A stretch of DNA of 64,000 bases from Pontimicrobium sp. SW4 (GTDB lineage Bacteria > Bacteroidota > Bacteroidia > Flavobacteriales > Flavobacteriaceae), in contig NZ_CP157199.1 in assembly GCF_039954625.1 (NCBI RefSeq), positions 1,054,001 through 1,118,000 of the forward strand, read 5' to 3'. The translations under genes and the position numbers were made by a program. The notes below the pieces were generated by a model that saw only the letters and a program-made list of their open reading frames with translations, was not told where the DNA came from and made no database searches. Positions 283-14,381 of this stretch are shown here, one piece after another (the stretch's first letter is position 1; each line of letters opens with the position of its first letter).

Positions 283-421
283 TTTGTTTAACGGTATTGT
301 GTAAGAATAGTTACGGTGTTAAAGACCTAATTTAGTAAAAAGAAACGAACCAGAGGAAAATCCGTAGGATTTTCCGAGTAGGCTAGAACTAAGCAACTAT
401 TTTTACACGGTGTTGGGCACA
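283..421. repeat. Long conserved end of element 1, attC-like imperfect palindrome
   Basis: Bases 299-312 pair with 395-408 over 14 positions (one G.T pair), so the whole end can fold back on itself. The apical part holds a perfect 9-bp hairpin (GGAAAATCC, GTA loop, GGATTTTCC; 355-375). The words ACCTAATTTA (325-334), AGTAGGCT (377-384) and ACGGTGTT (407-414) recur in the second element at offsets within two bases. Three stem pairs differ between the copies by compensated substitutions. Length, about 130 bp between cores, is in the range of long integron attC sites. Confidence 0.75.
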
Positions 422-425
422 GTAT

Positions 426-3071
426 TTATGCTTTTTTTATGTTTATAGCACAAGATCCTGTTTTATTTTCTCCCATTTCAAATGAGACTAATTGTCCGTT
501 TTTTAAGTCTTTCCATTCTTTCCAATCAGCTATGTCAATAAAATCATAGCGATAAGCAAAGATTCTGTCATTTCCCGATTCTATAAAAACAAAGTTATTT
601 TGCTCTTTGGTTTTTATTACGTTTCCTAGTTTTTTCTGCTGATTTGCCTCATAGTCAATGAGTGTATTCAAAGAATCATCTTTAAACTTTTCCTCAAATT
701 TTAAAATGATTTTTTTCTTCAAATCTACGGTAAGGTCAATATATGAGTTGGTTTTTTTTACTAAATCCTTTATATATTCTCTGTTTTCATCAATTGAAAC
801 AACAGGAATCATTCTCACAAAATGAAGTAATCCAATACTGAAATTTTTCGTCATCTTGTAGTCTACAATTGAATCATCAATACATTCTAAAAATAGTTCA
901 AAGCCTTTCTTAAAATGACTAACTCCAACTATAATATCCGTTTGAATTAATAATTCACTCTTTCCCCTTTCAATGTAGTAAGATATAAGTTCGGTATTTG
1001 CAATTCTTAAATTTTTGGAATCTAATTCCACATTAGTTTTTAAGTTAACTATAACCTTAATGGCATTACTAAAATCTTGAGCCGTATTTAAACAGCGTGC
1101 AATTAAAAAAGCAGTAAATGGATGATTTGGTTTTTGGTCATATACTTTTCTTGCATATTTTAAAGCTCCATCTGTATCTTCAAGCTTAAACATTAAAAAT
1201 TGCGCATAATAATATAAAAGACGTATATTTTCTGGTGCAATTTCAAGACCTAATTGGTAATCTTCATCTGCACTTAACAAATCACCTTGAGTAGCTTTAA
1301 TGAATGCCCCAACTCTATAGACTTCAAAGAAATTTGGGTCGATATTTTTTGCTTCTTTTACTTTTAAAAGTGCATTTTCGTAGTCACCATTTTTGGAATA
1401 AAATAACGCTTCTTGCAAGAATTTAGCACTAACCATTTGGTTTTGATTATCATATACTAATGCGTTAAGAGCGAATTCATTATATTTTTGAACTTTATTA
1501 ATTTGTCTTATTCCAACATTTAATTCTTTTGATTTTTTGATATTTGCTTTAATATAAGATTCTTCAATTGGATATTTCTTTGAAAGAAAGTCTTTGGCAA
1601 AATCAGAGATATAATAAATAACTTCTTCGTAGTTATTCCCATCCTCAATTTGTCTAGAAATCAATGTGGTTTTAAACAGTTCAATTAAGTATTTTCTAAC
1701 CTCTAATGGCTTATAATCAGATAAATATATGATTTCCGCAATGGTTACCTTTTTTCTTGATGCTCTGATAGTTTTTAGAATAGAGATTGCTCCTTCAGAT
1801 AATTTTTCGTAAACGTTAGTAAGACAAAAATCTAGCAAGTCTTCTTTATTGTTTATTACTTCGTGTGGTGCGATTCCAGTTTCTACAGTACTCACAAACC
1901 ATTTAATGGCTAAAGGATTGAAATAGAGTTTTTCTGAAATATCAACTAAAGTCTTTTGAGGTAGCTTTAATAAAGTTTCACTATTTCTAATTCTTGCAAT
2001 TTCTCTAATTAATTTTGCCGATTCTGTTTCTGATAATCCTTTTAGCTTTCTCGGATATTCTAATTCGCCCAATCCAATTCTAGAAGTGATTAAAATATTG
2101 CACTTTGTTTGTGCTTCTCTTATGAAGTTTCGGACTTCATCACTTTGAATTGTCTCTAAATTATCTATAATAAGCAATGTTTTAAAGAAATCGAGATACT
2201 CAAGAACTTCTGTAAGTTTGTTATCTGTTCCAATTGAATCGCTGATTTCAGCTATCAGCCCAGAATAGTCTGTAATTGCAGAGAATATGTCTTGTATTCC
2301 CTTTGATGTTAGCATTGTTGTTTTAGCTGATGTCCAAATTATTAATTCAAAAGGACATTTTTCATTCATATCTACAATGTCATATGCAACTTTTAAGGCT
2401 AACGCAGTTTTCCCTATTCCTCCATCACCTAAAACTGAAACAACTTTATTAGATAGTACTAATTTTGTTAAAGCATCAATATCTTGGGCTCGACCAATAA
2501 AACCAGTTTCGTCAAAGTCTGGAACAGGTAAGTTATGGCTAACTTTTGATATTTCTTCTTTCTGATGATAGGCTGGAAATTTTAAAGTAAGAACATACGA
2601 AGGGTCTTTGTCTATTTTATGCCTTGTGTCTATTGTTATTGTCCATTCAATTGGGTCAGAAGATTTTAATGTTGATATAAAGTCATAAGTGAATGAAAAA
2701 TCACCTCCAAGTAAAGGGCGAGTATGCATAACTCTATTCCTTATGGGTGTAAGGTCACTTAAAGTTTTAAAGATGCTTTTTAAATAAACTGCACTTTCTT
2801 TTTTAAGAAATTCTTTATTCTGATTTAAAATCGTGAAAGAGTCGTGAAAATCAAGAAACTCAACAACTTCGTCAATATTTTCGAGGTAATTCGCTCCTGG
2901 ATTATCTATCTCAAATCTTTCGATAATTTTTCTTTCCAGTTCAGGGTTTTTAAAAAATGCTAAATTTTCAAAATATGGTGTAATACTTTTTTTAATAGTA
3001 TTCTTTAAATCTATTTCTATACCGTAGATTAATGCGGCTAATGTTAATCTTGTTTCTGTAATTTTAGACAT
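426..3071 (-). CDS. HEPN-like / STAND NTPase / TPR / cold-shock-domain protein
   Basis: An 881-residue multidomain protein. Residues 1-180 are largely helical and contain RNRVMH (111-116), which fits the R-x4-6-H motif of HEPN ribonuclease domains. An NB-ARC/STAND NTPase follows: FIGR (191-194), Walker A GDGGIGKT (215-222), Walker B LLIIDNLE (299-306) and ITSR (328-331). Residues about 555-690 look like tetratricopeptide repeats. Residues 814-881 resemble a cold-shock nucleic-acid-binding domain (FVFIESGND, then GQLVSFEM). Effector plus STAND switch plus repeat sensor is the usual layout of bacterial anti-phage STAND proteins, so a defence role is plausible but inferred. It is the sole cargo of element 1, on the minus strand, with ATG at 3069-3071 twenty bases inside the inner repeat. 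Alternative: a transcription-type STAND regulator. Confidence 0.75.
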   Translation of the reverse strand: MSKITETRLTLAALIYGIEIDLKNTIKKSITPYFENLAFFKNPELERKIIERFEIDNPGANYLENIDEVVEFLDFHDSFTILNQNKEFLKKESAVYLKSIFKTLSDLTPIRNRVMHTRPLLGGDFSFTYDFISTLKSSDPIEWTITIDTRHKIDKDPSYVLTLKFPAYHQKEEISKVSHNLPVPDFDETGFIGRAQDIDALTKLVLSNKVVSVLGDGGIGKTALALKVAYDIVDMNEKCPFELIIWTSAKTTMLTSKGIQDIFSAITDYSGLIAEISDSIGTDNKLTEVLEYLDFFKTLLIIDNLETIQSDEVRNFIREAQTKCNILITSRIGLGELEYPRKLKGLSETESAKLIREIARIRNSETLLKLPQKTLVDISEKLYFNPLAIKWFVSTVETGIAPHEVINNKEDLLDFCLTNVYEKLSEGAISILKTIRASRKKVTIAEIIYLSDYKPLEVRKYLIELFKTTLISRQIEDGNNYEEVIYYISDFAKDFLSKKYPIEESYIKANIKKSKELNVGIRQINKVQKYNEFALNALVYDNQNQMVSAKFLQEALFYSKNGDYENALLKVKEAKNIDPNFFEVYRVGAFIKATQGDLLSADEDYQLGLEIAPENIRLLYYYAQFLMFKLEDTDGALKYARKVYDQKPNHPFTAFLIARCLNTAQDFSNAIKVIVNLKTNVELDSKNLRIANTELISYYIERGKSELLIQTDIIVGVSHFKKGFELFLECIDDSIVDYKMTKNFSIGLLHFVRMIPVVSIDENREYIKDLVKKTNSYIDLTVDLKKKIILKFEEKFKDDSLNTLIDYEANQQKKLGNVIKTKEQNNFVFIESGNDRIFAYRYDFIDIADWKEWKDLKNGQLVSFEMGENKTGSCAINIKKA

Positions 3072-3090
3072 TCTTTATGTTTTTCGATAT

Positions 3091-3149
3091 TGTGCCCAAC
3101 TTTAGTGATATGACGTCGTTTTAATGACTTATATTAGTCGTTAAACAAA
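3091..3149. repeat. Short conserved end of element 1
   Basis: It consists of the inner repeat TGTGCCCAAC, a conserved 38-base stretch and the outer repeat CGTTAAACAAA. The conserved part can fold: TGATATGA (3106-3113) pairs with TTATATTA (3129-3136) using two G.T pairs. It aligns with 14264-14305 nearly base for base; the copies differ by one or two T residues in T runs and a few substitutions. GCCCAAC (3094-3100) and GTTAAAC (3140-3146) would be the two cores if this is a short attC-like site of about 53 bp. Confidence 0.7.
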
Positions 3150-3216
3150 TCTAGGTGTTTTTTCTTACAAAATCAATACGTATTTATACGTATGTATATG
3201 AAAGTGAAGTTTTTAG

Positions 3217-5078: not shown

Positions 5079-5111
5079 GGTTTGTGTGTTTTTAATTGTT
5101 TACTTGGTTAA

Positions 5112-5203
5112 TCTATTGCTTAAATGGTGTTCTTAATAAATGAACAAAAACCATTGTTAAAACCTATATTAGCTATGTTTTATGCACGTTGTTGGTAACA
5201 ATT
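5112..5203. repeat. Degenerate relative of the long conserved cassette end
   Basis: This 90-base stretch resembles the right two thirds of the long ends of elements 1 and 2. An A-rich run (TTAATAAATGAACAAAAACC, 5133-5152) corresponds to the A-rich run before their apical hairpin. An imperfect hairpin (AATGGT 5123-5128 with ACCATT 5150-5155) and a terminal ACGTTGTTGGTAAC follow at similar spacing. I found no matching inner repeat (TTACCAAC) or short end beyond the neighbouring methyltransferase gene. It may be a decayed or solitary end. Confidence 0.35.
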
Positions 5204-5209
5204 TTTTTA

Positions 5210-5950
5210 TTAATTTATTTTTCTTTTTGTAAAAGGTATCATCATTGGTGTTTTCTTTATATATGCTAAATATTTAGATCTAAAATTTTCCTTTAAATCT
5301 TTTTCTTCATACAGAGCTCCAATGAAGAAATACAAAGTTAAAAGAATAGCAAACACTAAATGTGTTGCAGACATCATTGGTGTAAACCATAGTCCCATAA
5401 TTCCACCCAAGTATAATGGATGCCTTGTATATTTATAAAATGAAACCACTCTAAATTCCAATTCAGTGTATGGTTTATTTAATAGTTCTAAATAGGTTTG
5501 TCGCAGACCAAATAAATCAAAATGATTGATTAGAAAAGTACTTACAAATAAAATTACCCAACCTAAAAAAAATAAAGCGTACATAGTATAAAATAGAATA
5601 CTTTCTTCTTCAATAGTCCATATGTTACCACCAATTGGTTCCCAATTCCATATAAGAACAAAGAGTAAAATACCAGCTTGCAGCACGTAGGTACTTCTTT
5701 CTATGGGTTTTGGCAGAACTTTAGTAATCCAATTTTTAAATGATTTTCTAGCCATTACACTGTGAGGTACAGCAAAGAGTAAAACAAGTGAAATATTTTT
5801 TAAAAGAGCATAATAAAATGGTACTTCAGGGTTTCTATCGATTGATATTTCTGGAATTAGATGACTTATCGATAAAATCCAAAATAATAAAGAAGCAAAA
5901 CCAATGCAATAACAGATAATAGAGTAGATGAACATGAATACCGTTTTCAT
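5210..5950 (-). CDS. Isoprenylcysteine/methanethiol methyltransferase-like membrane protein
   Basis: A 246-residue integral membrane protein with about six hydrophobic helices. The C-terminal half has the ICMT-type SAM-binding signature: YKYTRHPLYLGGIMGLW followed by ALYEEKDLKENF. The overall pattern, including the N-terminal HSVMARKSFK segment, is closest in my recollection to MddA, which methylates methanethiol to dimethyl sulfide; NnrU-like proteins are an alternative. The ATG at 5948-5950 is preferred over an in-frame TTG 36 bases upstream. An AraC regulator gene lies 108 bp upstream on the same strand. Its 3' end abuts a degenerate cassette-end repeat. Confidence 0.65.
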   Translation of the reverse strand: MKTVFMFIYSIICYCIGFASLLFWILSISHLIPEISIDRNPEVPFYYALLKNISLVLLFAVPHSVMARKSFKNWITKVLPKPIERSTYVLQAGILLFVLIWNWEPIGGNIWTIEEESILFYTMYALFFLGWVILFVSTFLINHFDLFGLRQTYLELLNKPYTELEFRVVSFYKYTRHPLYLGGIMGLWFTPMMSATHLVFAILLTLYFFIGALYEEKDLKENFRSKYLAYIKKTPMMIPFTKRKIN

Positions 5951-6058
5951 AATATTTAGTTGAATTAATAATGACACAAAATTCAATTAAATAAGTGACA
6001 AACAATTTGCTGAGATGTCCTAAAAATATTCTCTAAGGCTCAAGTAAAATATGAGTTA

Positions 6059-6928
6059 TTATGAACTAGTATTTAGTTTCCTAAACCGATTTGGAGGCAT
6101 TTTGTATTTTTCTTTAAAGGCTCGAATAAAATGGGATGTATTCTTAAATCCGCTATCATGACAAATTTCATTGATATTCAACTGGGTGCTAATTAGTAGC
6201 ATCTTACTGTAAGTGAGTCTTCTATTAATAAGCCACTTTGATGGTGAGGTTTCAAAACACTTTTTGAAATCTCTCTTAAAACTTGAAAGACTCCGTCCCG
6301 ATAGTTTGGCAAAAGCGTTGATTGGAAGCGCATATTGAAAGTTATTATTCATAACTTGCTCAATGTTAGCTTTCCTTTGATTTGAGATCTCAAGTAATAG
6401 ATTTTTAAATGCGCTATTGTTTTTGTTTAGGGTGATATTGTAAATCAATTCTTTGAATTTTAGCTCCACAAGTTCAGGTGGAATAGATTCATTCATTGTC
6501 AGATATTGTAAAATACTTTGTATTAAAATCTGGAACGAATTGTTGGTCTTAATTTTTAGTACGCCATCTTTTATAGCTTTGTCTTCGGAAGTCCTAGATG
6601 TTATATGATTTTGCAAAGTGAATTTTCTGATGAACTCATCATTCATAAAAAAGAGCATAACGCAATAGTCTTCTTCAAGATATTGCTTTGTTGCATACAC
6701 GCCTTTTTTAACAAATAGTGTATCACCAGCAGTAAGACAATAGGTTTGTTTAGGGGTTATCCAATCTTTACGTCCGCTAATAACGTAAGTGATCAAGTGA
6801 GATTTTGTCCACAGTTGAAACTCTTCAACATTGAGTGGGCATTTATATTCTACCAAAAGAAAGTCATTTCCAATATGTTTATTGAATTTGGGATGTTTTT
6901 TAAAAAAATCATATACGTCTACAGTCAT
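6059..6928 (-). CDS. AraC-family transcriptional regulator
   Basis: A 289-residue protein. Residues about 30-120 have a cupin-like sensing fold (YVISGRKDWITPKQTYCLTAGDTLFVKKG). The C-terminal 95 residues form the double HTH of AraC proteins: ALPINAFAKLSGRSLSSFKRDFKK, then NINEICHDSGFKNTSHFIRAFKEKYKMPPNRFRK. The ligand is unknown. It lies directly upstream of the methyltransferase gene on the same strand, and downstream of a sirtuin gene (38 bp), so it may regulate or be co-transcribed with either. Confidence 0.9.
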   Translation of the reverse strand: MTVDVYDFFKKHPKFNKHIGNDFLLVEYKCPLNVEEFQLWTKSHLITYVISGRKDWITPKQTYCLTAGDTLFVKKGVYATKQYLEEDYCVMLFFMNDEFIRKFTLQNHITSRTSEDKAIKDGVLKIKTNNSFQILIQSILQYLTMNESIPPELVELKFKELIYNITLNKNNSAFKNLLLEISNQRKANIEQVMNNNFQYALPINAFAKLSGRSLSSFKRDFKKCFETSPSKWLINRRLTYSKMLLISTQLNINEICHDSGFKNTSHFIRAFKEKYKMPPNRFRKLNTSS

Positions 6929-6966
6929 GTACTCGAAGTTCAGTTTTTTTTATGAGAAAGTCAAGG

Positions 6967-7656
6967 TTAGTTTGATAATAGACTAATCACTTTCTCTACA
7001 CCAATAGTAGCTTTTTCAGCAAAAACAGTTACTTGTGTATTACTATCTATTGCTGGTTTTGGATCTATGTAAAAAATGTTGGTTTCTGGATTTACATAAT
7101 GCATTAAACTAGCTGCAGGATACACTTGCATTGAAGTGCCAATAATTATTAAAACATCAGCTGTTTGGCAAATATCCACAGCTTTTTCTATCATTGGTAC
7201 TGCTTCACCAAACCACACAATATGTGGACGTAATTGATGACCTTTACTGCATACATCTCCTAGTACTAAATCATGTTTCCATACTCGAATATCAAATTCA
7301 TCATAAGTACTACGTACTTTTAATAATTCACCATGCAAATGCAATACATTACTACTTCCAGCTCGCTCGTGTAAATCGTCTACATTTTGTGTGACGATGG
7401 TTACATTGTAATCTTTTTCTAAATTGGCTAAAACTTTATGCGCATGATTTGGTTGCACTTTAAATAATTGTCTGCGACGTTGGTTATAAAAATCTAGAAC
7501 TAATTCTGGATTAGCAGCAAAACCTTGTGGTGAGGCTACTTCCATAACGTCGTGTCCTTCCCATAAACCATCGGTATCTCTAAAGGTTTTAATGCCACTT
7601 TCGGCACTCATTCCTGCTCCTGTTAGTACGACTAGATGTTTTACTCTTGTTTCCAT
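6967..7656 (-). CDS. cobB: Sir2-family NAD-dependent protein deacylase
   Basis: A 229-residue class III sirtuin. It shows GAGMSAESGIKTFRD (NAD binding), TQNVDDLHERAG, the catalytic histidine in HLHGEL, and VWFGEAVP. The FYNQRRR segment carries the Tyr-x-x-Arg pair that in SIRT5-type enzymes binds succinyl- and malonyl-lysine, so desuccinylation is likely. The usual four zinc cysteines are mostly missing: the first pair reads RSTY and the second contains only one Cys (GDVCSKGH). Its start lies 16 bases inside the upstream TPR gene, indicating coupling. Confidence 0.9.
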   Translation of the reverse strand: METRVKHLVVLTGAGMSAESGIKTFRDTDGLWEGHDVMEVASPQGFAANPELVLDFYNQRRRQLFKVQPNHAHKVLANLEKDYNVTIVTQNVDDLHERAGSSNVLHLHGELLKVRSTYDEFDIRVWKHDLVLGDVCSKGHQLRPHIVWFGEAVPMIEKAVDICQTADVLIIIGTSMQVYPAASLMHYVNPETNIFYIDPKPAIDSNTQVTVFAEKATIGVEKVISLLSN

Positions 7657-13554: not shown

Positions 13555-13687
13555 TTCGCTTATCGGTTATGTATAAGATTAATTGCGTGTTTAAGCACCT
13601 AATTTAACAAATACAAACCGAATAGAAAATCCGAAAGGATTTTCGTAAGTAGGCTTGCACTAGCAATTGATTTTATACGGTGTTAGC
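13555..13687. repeat. Long conserved end of element 2
   Basis: Bases 13571-13586 pair with 13663-13678 over 16 positions, two of them G.T. The apical hairpin is GAAAATCC, a GAAA loop, and GGATTTTC (13625-13644). The words ACCTAATTTA (13597-13606), AGTAGGCT (13648-13655) and ACGGTGTT (13677-13684) are shared with element 1 at nearly the same distance from the outer repeat (42, 93 and 122 bases against 42, 94 and 124). Confidence 0.75.
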
Positions 13688-13693
13688 AGCTGT

Positions 13694-14233
13694 TTATTTT
13701 TCCGTTGCCAATGAATCTTGTTTTTCCGATAGCTCTTTAATCAATGCCATTAACCCTCCTTCAAATCCAGAAACTTGTTTTATAAAAGGTAAATGTGCCC
13801 CAATTGACCTGCCTTTATATATTTTATTATCCTTAACCCAAAAGATAAACGTTTCGTTAAAATCAGTTTTACTAGCCTTGGTTGTTGAACTAGCAATTTT
13901 TGGTAAATCAGATTCCATTCTAATCAAGAAAACAACTTTTTCTTTATCAGCTACTGCCTCTACAATTTCAAGTTTTAAATTTGGTAAAAGAGATTCAATT
14001 CTTTTAACGGCAGATTTTAATTCATCCCGACTATTAAATTTTCTTCCTTCCGTTGATGTATGCTCATAATTTTCAACAAACAACTCATCAATTAAATCAA
14101 TATTATTATGATTGTATACTTCATTGAAATAACGAGAAGTTAATTCAAGGTTTGATTTTCTTATTTTTTCATCAGATGATTCTTGTTGACAAGAAGTCAA
14201 AAGTATTAGTAAGAGTATTAGAGTTGTTCTCAT
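13694..14233 (-). CDS. SnoaL/NTF2-like lipoprotein, cargo of element 2
   Basis: A 179-residue protein beginning with a lipoprotein signal peptide whose lipobox is LLTSC (Cys at residue 15). The mature part resembles the SnoaL/NTF2-like fold: NLELTSRYFNEVYNHNNIDLIDELFVENYEHTS opening helix, then strands ending in a long helix (LMALIKELSEKQ). The pattern is that of small polyketide-cyclase-like proteins, with no obvious catalytic residues. It probably sits on the periplasmic side of a membrane. It is the only gene in element 2; its ATG is 25 bases inside the inner repeat, and its stop is 6 bases from the opposite copy. Confidence 0.75.
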   Translation of the reverse strand: MRTTLILLLILLTSCQQESSDEKIRKSNLELTSRYFNEVYNHNNIDLIDELFVENYEHTSTEGRKFNSRDELKSAVKRIESLLPNLKLEIVEAVADKEKVVFLIRMESDLPKIASSTTKASKTDFNETFIFWVKDNKIYKGRSIGAHLPFIKQVSGFEGGLMALIKELSEKQDSLATEK

Positions 14234-14257: not shown

Positions 14258-14316
14258 GCTAACTTTTTTAATGATATGAAGTCGTTTTTAATGACTTATA
14301 TAAGTCGATAAGCGAA
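14258..14316. repeat. Short conserved end of element 2
   Basis: GCTAAC (inner repeat), 42 conserved bases and CGATAAGCGAA (outer repeat). The conserved part includes TGATATGA (14272-14279) and the perfect 14-bp palindrome GACTTATATAAGTC (14293-14306). In element 1 the corresponding stretch (3126-3139) reads GACTTATATTAGTC, keeping the terminal GACT/AGTC pairing. Confidence 0.7.
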
Positions 14317-14381
14317 AGTAGTTTTTAAAATTTAGTAAGTCAATATACTAAGAATTAATAAGTAACAAATTTATTAACAAC

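Follow-up and report, generated by a model that had tools for sequence, protein, structure and literature searches.

What gives rise to nested inverted repeats around single genes is the question raised by two elements in the genome of Pontimicrobium sp. SW4 (Flavobacteriaceae). Both lie in the stretch analysed here, the window, which comprises 64,000 nucleotides (NZ_CP157199.1, positions 1,054,001 to 1,118,000). Each has an outer and an inner pair of complementary repeats (cores), a long conserved end and a short one, and an earlier note, made from the window alone, had predicted that they fold into a four-way junction. The outer and inner pairs of both elements are present as described, but a four-way junction is not needed to explain them: the repeats are nested because a cassette with its own cores inserts in a site with its own cores, and the nested arms are separated by up to 2.8 kb. 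The reading preferred here, with a probability of roughly 85%, is that these are integron-like cassettes in dispersed, dedicated recipient sites (pads), and that the likely enzyme is a tyrosine recombinase without the insert (patch) that is specific to the integron integrase IntI. A cassette would consist of a cargo open reading frame (ORF) and one attC-like site, the long end, and the resident pad of an outer core, a short hairpin, the other outer core and a conserved flank of about 35 nt. Element 1 runs, on the minus strand, from the flank (3183-3150) through core, short hairpin, junction, inner core, ATPase gene, inner core and long site to the outer core, and element 2 has the same order.

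The two kinds of site were followed through the genome with covariance models built from its own copies, R1 from 12 long ends and R2 from 16 short ends; an initial regular expression for long ends had been too strict (one match), and DNA query searches gave 14 matches for the long end (E<=1) and 25 for the short end (E<=10). At E<=0.1 there are 31 R1 and 39 R2 matches, counting in the training copies (12 and 16), which match by construction, unlike those found in relatives. A redundant assembly is suggested by equal matches towards the two ends of the main contig (C1 11111 and 3415025) and by a pad on contig C2 (2035) nearly identical to one at C1 1733610; site counts may be slightly inflated. 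The long site is a 17-pair stem with both-sided changes in five pairs, and occurs singly or in tandem arrays, where long ends stand without short ends. Short sites are dispersed, with the conserved flank to one side. A single model of 87 positions, which takes in this flank beyond the recombination cores, describes the pads and has 31 matches at E<=1e-4 in this genome (one of them on a duplicate contig). At gathering thresholds, Rfam gave nothing in the window but one tRNA. The prediction that each end folds on itself holds for the long end (z -3.29, 0/200 shuffles as good) and fails for the element 1 copy of the short end (z 0.69, 143/200 shuffles fold equally well); the consensus of 16 short-end copies is a 12-pair hairpin. 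The window strand is the better-folding strand in 12/12 training sites and, by computed folding, in 59 of 68 sites (8 worse, 1 even; p 1e-10). In integrons attC is recombined as a folded bottom strand, and the substrate here may likewise be single-stranded. Of the proposal that the outer pair varies by locus and the inner pair by cargo, it stands that the outer pair follows the recipient site and the inner pair the cargo, but the outer core is not free to vary. It is part of the recipient repeat, with two subfamilies (CGTTAAACGAA and CGATAAGCGAA) plus drift; the outer 11-mer of element 2 has two matches in the window against 0.01 expected from shuffled windows.

Comparison with relatives shows insertion. 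In three genomes 74 pads were examined: 34 here (33 of the 39 short-end matches and a weak window site, leaving out the near-duplicate on C2, two antisense palindrome matches and three weak matches), 21 of the 23 matches in G001, and all 18 matches plus one weaker site in G002. By hand, from listed scores and comparisons with relatives, 22 were called empty (complementary cores around the short hairpin alone) and 27 filled (left core upstream), leaving 25 uncalled. Right flanks match in 26 between-genome pairs of pads. At nine loci one genome has an empty pad where another has a filled one, longer by 227 to 1753 bases; some other loci have inserts of different length at the same place. Two of the nine (the window at 5.1-7.0 kb and G002 C3:1014364) show decay at the left end. 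The first of these two is a third filled pad of the window, outside the coordinates of the earlier note, with ORFs at 5210-5986 and 6059-6928 and a weak R2 match at 6895-6971 (E 0.028); its locus is an empty pad in both relatives. An integron-like model had been said to predict empty sites that keep exactly one conserved end between rejoined outer cores, and the 22 empty pads, with the nine loci filled in a relative, bear this out. Pads found by the short-end model keep a short end by construction, and directly joined outer repeats would escape it; since the model itself selects the short end, the added value of the comparison lies in the short-end-only pads that are filled in relatives. At the first window locus a 2783 bp insert faces 446 bp before the pad in G002 (another cassette, with a 118-aa ORF); as the pad is absent in G001 and G002 has that other cassette, gain and loss of the pad cannot be polarised there. 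The second window locus has no clean empty ortholog among the relatives compared, G002 and G005 having other sequence at that place. Cassette gain with little change of the hairpin interior is seen at 549625 and 432897. In one orthologous pair (2563716 of this genome and G002 C3:1097637) both pads are empty and their interiors differ, while the right flanks are 95% alike.

These pads also locate the cut. The base at the end of the core triplet is T in 17 and C in 5 of the 22 empty pads, and C in 26 of the 27 filled ones (Fisher p 6.2e-8); all five loci with T in the empty ortholog have C on the far side in the filled one. For 21 of the 27 filled pads (20 C, 1 T), the left core is placed by independent evidence, namely a long site, an ortholog or a 227-bp cassette. 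As judged from the sequences, the switch from T to C points to a cut between triplet bases 1 and 2, with the cassette bringing its own terminal base. A tyrosine recombinase would join the folded cassette site to the pad at this position, with [G/A]^[T/A]T accepted beyond G^TT; the pad would retain the base before the cut and the cassette would supply its own G to the far side. The minus strand would then read pad core, short hairpin, [G or A]^TT with the inner core, ORF, inner core, long site ending in G, and ^TT with the outer core. That either TT or AT may follow the cut accounts for element 2, whose outer pair breaks the integron core rule (GAT where GTT is expected). The earlier suggestion that pairing matters there, rather than a fixed GTT, survives in that the second triplet base is flexible and the other arm compensates; AT-type (GAT) sites form a recurrent subfamily.

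Recent spread is evident for one cassette of 227 bp, present in nine copies with 0-1 mismatch in the stretches examined: five in pads, three in arrays, and one between the attI-like site of the candidate integrase and the next cassette. It has strong hairpins and no ORF over 70 codons. Each copy is followed by C or T from the recipient; the flanks of all nine rejoin, and no target duplication was seen around them. The cassette is AT-type yet occupies pads of both TT-type and AT-type. Of the cassettes in this genome it has probably moved most recently, and it could serve as terminator, insulator or promoter. Another AT-type stretch rich in hairpins, with three core matches GTACATCATC, adjoins the integrase end of an array in another species (L190, G002:C6), and hairpin-rich mini-cassettes may form a class.

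The cores are matched within cassettes. Among 58 cassettes of eight arrays, cognate inner cores pair at 9.03 of 10 positions against 6.21 for 3306 non-cognate pairs (0/10,000 shuffles), although the training set included some sites of the array in this genome (L066), and certain cassettes in the list may extend across a site missed by the model. The two cores that flank one long site pair at 6.33 (69 sites), as would be expected of cores from neighbouring cassettes. The arrays consist of mostly single-ORF cassettes in one orientation, each with complementary RYYYAAC/GTTRRRY cores as in integrons, AT-type cores being exceptions to the strict GTT rule.

The array L066 ends in a gene for a tyrosine recombinase of 393 aa, the likely enzyme of the pads under the integron-like reading. 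Its relatives adjoin long-site arrays in seven other genomes (G001, G002, G005, G014, G017, G019 and G029), with the integrase in the opposite direction in G002 and G005. Among five named records fetched by the integrase protein alone, three have attC-like sites (11, 1 and 3 matches), and the contigs of the remaining two end within about 300 nt of the integrase. Of the 12 same-direction loci, 10 have an attI-like motif, ATATA[A/G]CnnG[T/A]T, behind the integrase stop, the other two having a different sequence that ends in GTTG; by sequence, the first cassette is inserted at this site beside the integrase, as in integrons. The protein itself is not IntI by the published definition, though it stands beside integron-like sites. 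Residues 184-245 of IntI4 face 19 residues of the 393-aa protein in the alignment, and the 40-aa insert of IntI1 is absent from 15/15 aligned family members, as it is from XerC and XerD. The match to TIGR02249 (194.4 bits) lies below the cut-off of 265, and that to the best named profile, NF040815 (195.1 bits), below 220. There are about 95 extra N-terminal residues compared with IntI, and the family shares with IntI1 and IntI4 an SPLD-like C-terminus (NPLD in three members, SPFD in one) that the XerC and XerD of this genome lack. The earlier note had advised looking for a tyrosine recombinase of IntI or XerC type; the one that adjoins an array is no canonical IntI and no plain XerC or XerD either. 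A tree of 19 recombinases placed IntI1 within the family (support 93/92) and was set aside as proof of origin on account of a long branch and unusual residue composition. A plasmid of Chryseobacterium sp. SNU WT5 (NZ_CP041688.1) encodes a 39% identical relative. After its gene come small genes and three weak matches to the long site (E 7e-8, 2.7e-4 and 0.008); this may be a form carried by plasmids in Weeksellaceae.

The distribution of the sites was searched in 60 genomes at E<=1e-4, where filters are stricter and weak matches are lost. Long sites occur in 39 genomes (35 of 37 within the family and 4 of 23 outside), with at least 58 in one genome, 58 being the number of candidates scored per genome. 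Pads occur in 11 genomes, namely all six of the genus and those from five other genera of the family, and in none of the 23 outside the family at this threshold.

Several observations weigh against the integron-like reading with the 393-aa integrase as its enzyme. No call was possible for one third of the pads (25/74), all calls are manual, and the empty pads 443852, 3241448 and 202231 pair imperfectly or were placed via orthologs. The filled pad 641961 has T, the left-core pairing score favours C by one point, and 6 of the 27 filled pads have a left core with no independent fix. The eight arrays had been chosen for having integrase and long ends on one contig. Two of the 21 filled elements with an ORF have their longest one directed at the pad. 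Orthologous pads with agreeing flanks frequently have unlike hairpin interiors, which simple insertion does not explain. The integrase loci searched gave no pad match, and the IntI-specific insert is reportedly necessary for activity, to judge from the title of a 2001 paper by Messier and Roy. Lastly, G004 has 19 pads and 22 long ends, and its best integrase match is only 31% identical, while the pads of G001, G002 and G005 coexist with integrase relatives of 37-39%.

This last point is also what favours the strongest alternative, in which the cassettes are still integron-like and it is the host XerC/XerD, or another tyrosine recombinase, that acts on the pads. Such enzymes are at hand, since the genome encodes XerC, XerD and further recombinases (among them a tyrosine recombinase gene pair that occurs twice on C1, at 701799-703182 and 707789-709172, about 6 kb apart and with equal scores, probably a duplicated mobile element). 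The integrase resembles XerA, XerC and XerD in its catalytic domain, its best named profile and the missing IntI insert; it differs from XerC and XerD in its C-terminal end, as noted above, and in adjoining a cassette array. The G004 assembly, however, is fragmented and incomplete (86% complete, 390 contigs), arrays, pads and the integrase attI all contain the same 227-bp cassette under one junction rule, and long ends are common to integrase-adjacent arrays and filled pads. A service by Xer or another recombinase is accordingly held to be unlikely, though it is the alternative to be taken most seriously.

The differing hairpin interiors, which in several pairs change together with the filled state, could instead mean that cassettes reach pads mainly through homologous recombination or gene conversion between pads. 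The one-sided T-to-C switch, and the occurrence of the 227-bp cassette between unrelated flanks (in pads, in arrays and at attI), speak rather for a cut inside the triplet, and conversion as the main route appears quite improbable; that pad-to-pad conversion lies behind the differing interiors is a guess. In a further reading the pads are opportunistic secondary sites with no dedicated repeat family behind them. Integron cassettes are known to enter genomes at attG sites, as Loot et al. are said to have found in 2024, and the cassettes here likewise integrate outside an array. An attG site is a non-classical target unlike attI or attC, and such sites are described as divergent from classical ones in a passage of PMC12901181. 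The pads are by contrast conserved hairpins with complementary cores, a repeated palindromic family that conforms to one model including the flank and is found both empty and filled, which makes the opportunistic version very improbable. Least probable of all is a cut-and-paste, palindrome-targeting transposon or miniature inverted-repeat transposable element (MITE) with subterminal hairpins carrying the cargo: the copies are dispersed, with terminal inverted repeats and a fixed order of ends, but the inner cores are cargo-specific, long ends stand in arrays without short ends, the nine copies of the 227-bp cassette lack target duplications, and orthologous short-end-only pads at loci filled in relatives refute the simple form of this model, in that the two ends do not move together.

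The integron-like reading places the system close to the sedentary chromosomal integrons, with which it shares uniformly oriented, mostly single-ORF cassettes with one attC-like site each, matched cores, a G^TT-like cut, an attI-like site by the integrase and a one-strand folding bias. It departs from them in the missing IntI insert and the longer N-terminus of its integrase, in accepting [G/A]^[T/A]T, and in that its cassettes also spread singly over dozens of dedicated pads. Clusters of attC sites lacking integrases nearby (CALIN) and single attC sites, in the terms of IntegronFinder, likewise have attC-like sites with no neighbouring integrase; here, unlike in these, a short recipient site and a long cassette site are combined in a defined order, and an empty state exists.

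All but one of the 22 filled elements examined have an ORF of at least 50 aa, and the longest ORF reads away from the pad in 19 of these 21. More than half of the pads in this genome (18/34) are preceded, at no more than 100 nt, by the stop codon of an open stretch of at least 100 codons in the same direction. Flavobacterial promoters have a TTG element at a characteristic spacing from the downstream box. The flank consensus, aligned over 57 of the 74 pads, runs from TTGAcTTT to tAACTTCG, TTG and TA being separated by 20 nt; the minus strand of the element 1 pad has TTG (3176-3174), 20 nt and an exact TAGATTTG (3153-3146), with TTTG where the consensus has TTCG. The -7 box is given as TAnnTTTG in a passage of PMC9723704. 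The pad flank resembles such a promoter, and pads may drive transcription into the cassette or let it pass. The ATPase encoded by element 1 has a match to NB-ARC (1.7e-10) and a TPR-like C-terminal part, and gave no PADLOC match at 1e-5. PADLOC matches two of seven cargo proteins (a bSEFIR protein and a TIR-type effector), too few for the cargo to be read as defence islands. The array L066 carries genes for a SEFIR/TIR protein, an nSTAND3 ATPase, a protein with a weak TIR-type effector match, and GNAT, SnoaL-like and beta-lactamase-fold proteins. The coordinates of all features are collected in Table 1.

Table 1. Features of the two window elements, the decayed third pad, the candidate integrase and the 227-bp cassette. 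Positions are those of the window unless a contig or locus is named (G000, this genome).
Feature	Position	Strand	Remark
Element 1, outer core, left	283-293		TTTGTTTAACG; ends AACG; the C would come from the cassette site
Element 1, long end (attC-like cassette site)	294-411	minus	R1 match 289-415
Element 1, inner core	412-421		GTTGGGCACA; distal cassette end on minus strand
Element 1, cargo, 881-aa STAND-type ATPase	426-3071	minus	reads away from pad
Element 1, inner core	3091-3100		TGTGCCCAAC; cassette/pad junction
Element 1, short end (hairpin interior of recipient pad)	3101-3138	minus	R2 match 3097-3183
Element 1, outer core, right	3139-3149		CGTTAAACAAA
Element 1, conserved pad flank	3150-3183	minus	promoter-like
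Decayed filled pad	5089-6985 (approx.)	minus	
Element 2, outer core, left	13555-13565		AT-type, ...TATCG
Element 2, long end (attC-like)	13566-13681	minus	R1 match 13561-13685
Element 2, inner core	13682-13687		GTTAGC
Element 2, cargo, 179-aa SnoaL-like protein	13694-14233	minus	
Element 2, inner core	14258-14263		GCTAAC
Element 2, pad hairpin interior	14264-14305	minus	R2 match 14263-14350
Element 2, outer core, right	14306-14316		CGATAAGCGAA
Element 2, conserved pad flank	14317-14350	minus	
393-aa tyrosine recombinase	G000:C1:3384541-3385722 (L066 16541-17722)	minus	ends array of long sites
227-bp cassette copies	G000:C1 549398, 853350, 894852, 1648084, 2126753, 2207566, 3368549, 3372485, 3384276		

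Surveys define integrons by the IntI insert: according to a passage of PMC2426708, a match had to have the additional domain or patch to be kept, the tool profile is described in a passage of PMC9668308 as built from the IntI additional domain, and for IntegronFinder 2.0 a passage of PMC9024848 gives one complete integron in Bacteroidetes proper, in Salinibacter ruber M1. Yet attC-like sites are carried by 39 of the 60 related genomes searched here (E<=1e-4). A literature search of open-licence papers, excluding preprints, found nothing on patchless integrons of Flavobacteriaceae or on dispersed pads; it is the combination of a patchless integrase with dedicated dispersed pads that is new, and the whole is called an integron-like system. 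For the study of cassettes, the pads are a natural experiment, in which a locus that is empty in one relative and filled in another gives the cut to the base, and through which the spread of single cassettes can be tested. An active enzyme would mean that the insert is not essential for cassette recombination and that the flavobacterial cassette pool is much larger. It may even be, with a chance somewhat short of even, that Flavobacteriaceae hold a large, overlooked class of integrons with patchless integrases, which may predate or parallel IntI, and that one lineage has made of it a distributed integron, with one enzyme serving dozens of dedicated pads with promoter-like flanks, and with single cassettes expressed simultaneously at many loci rather than from one array.

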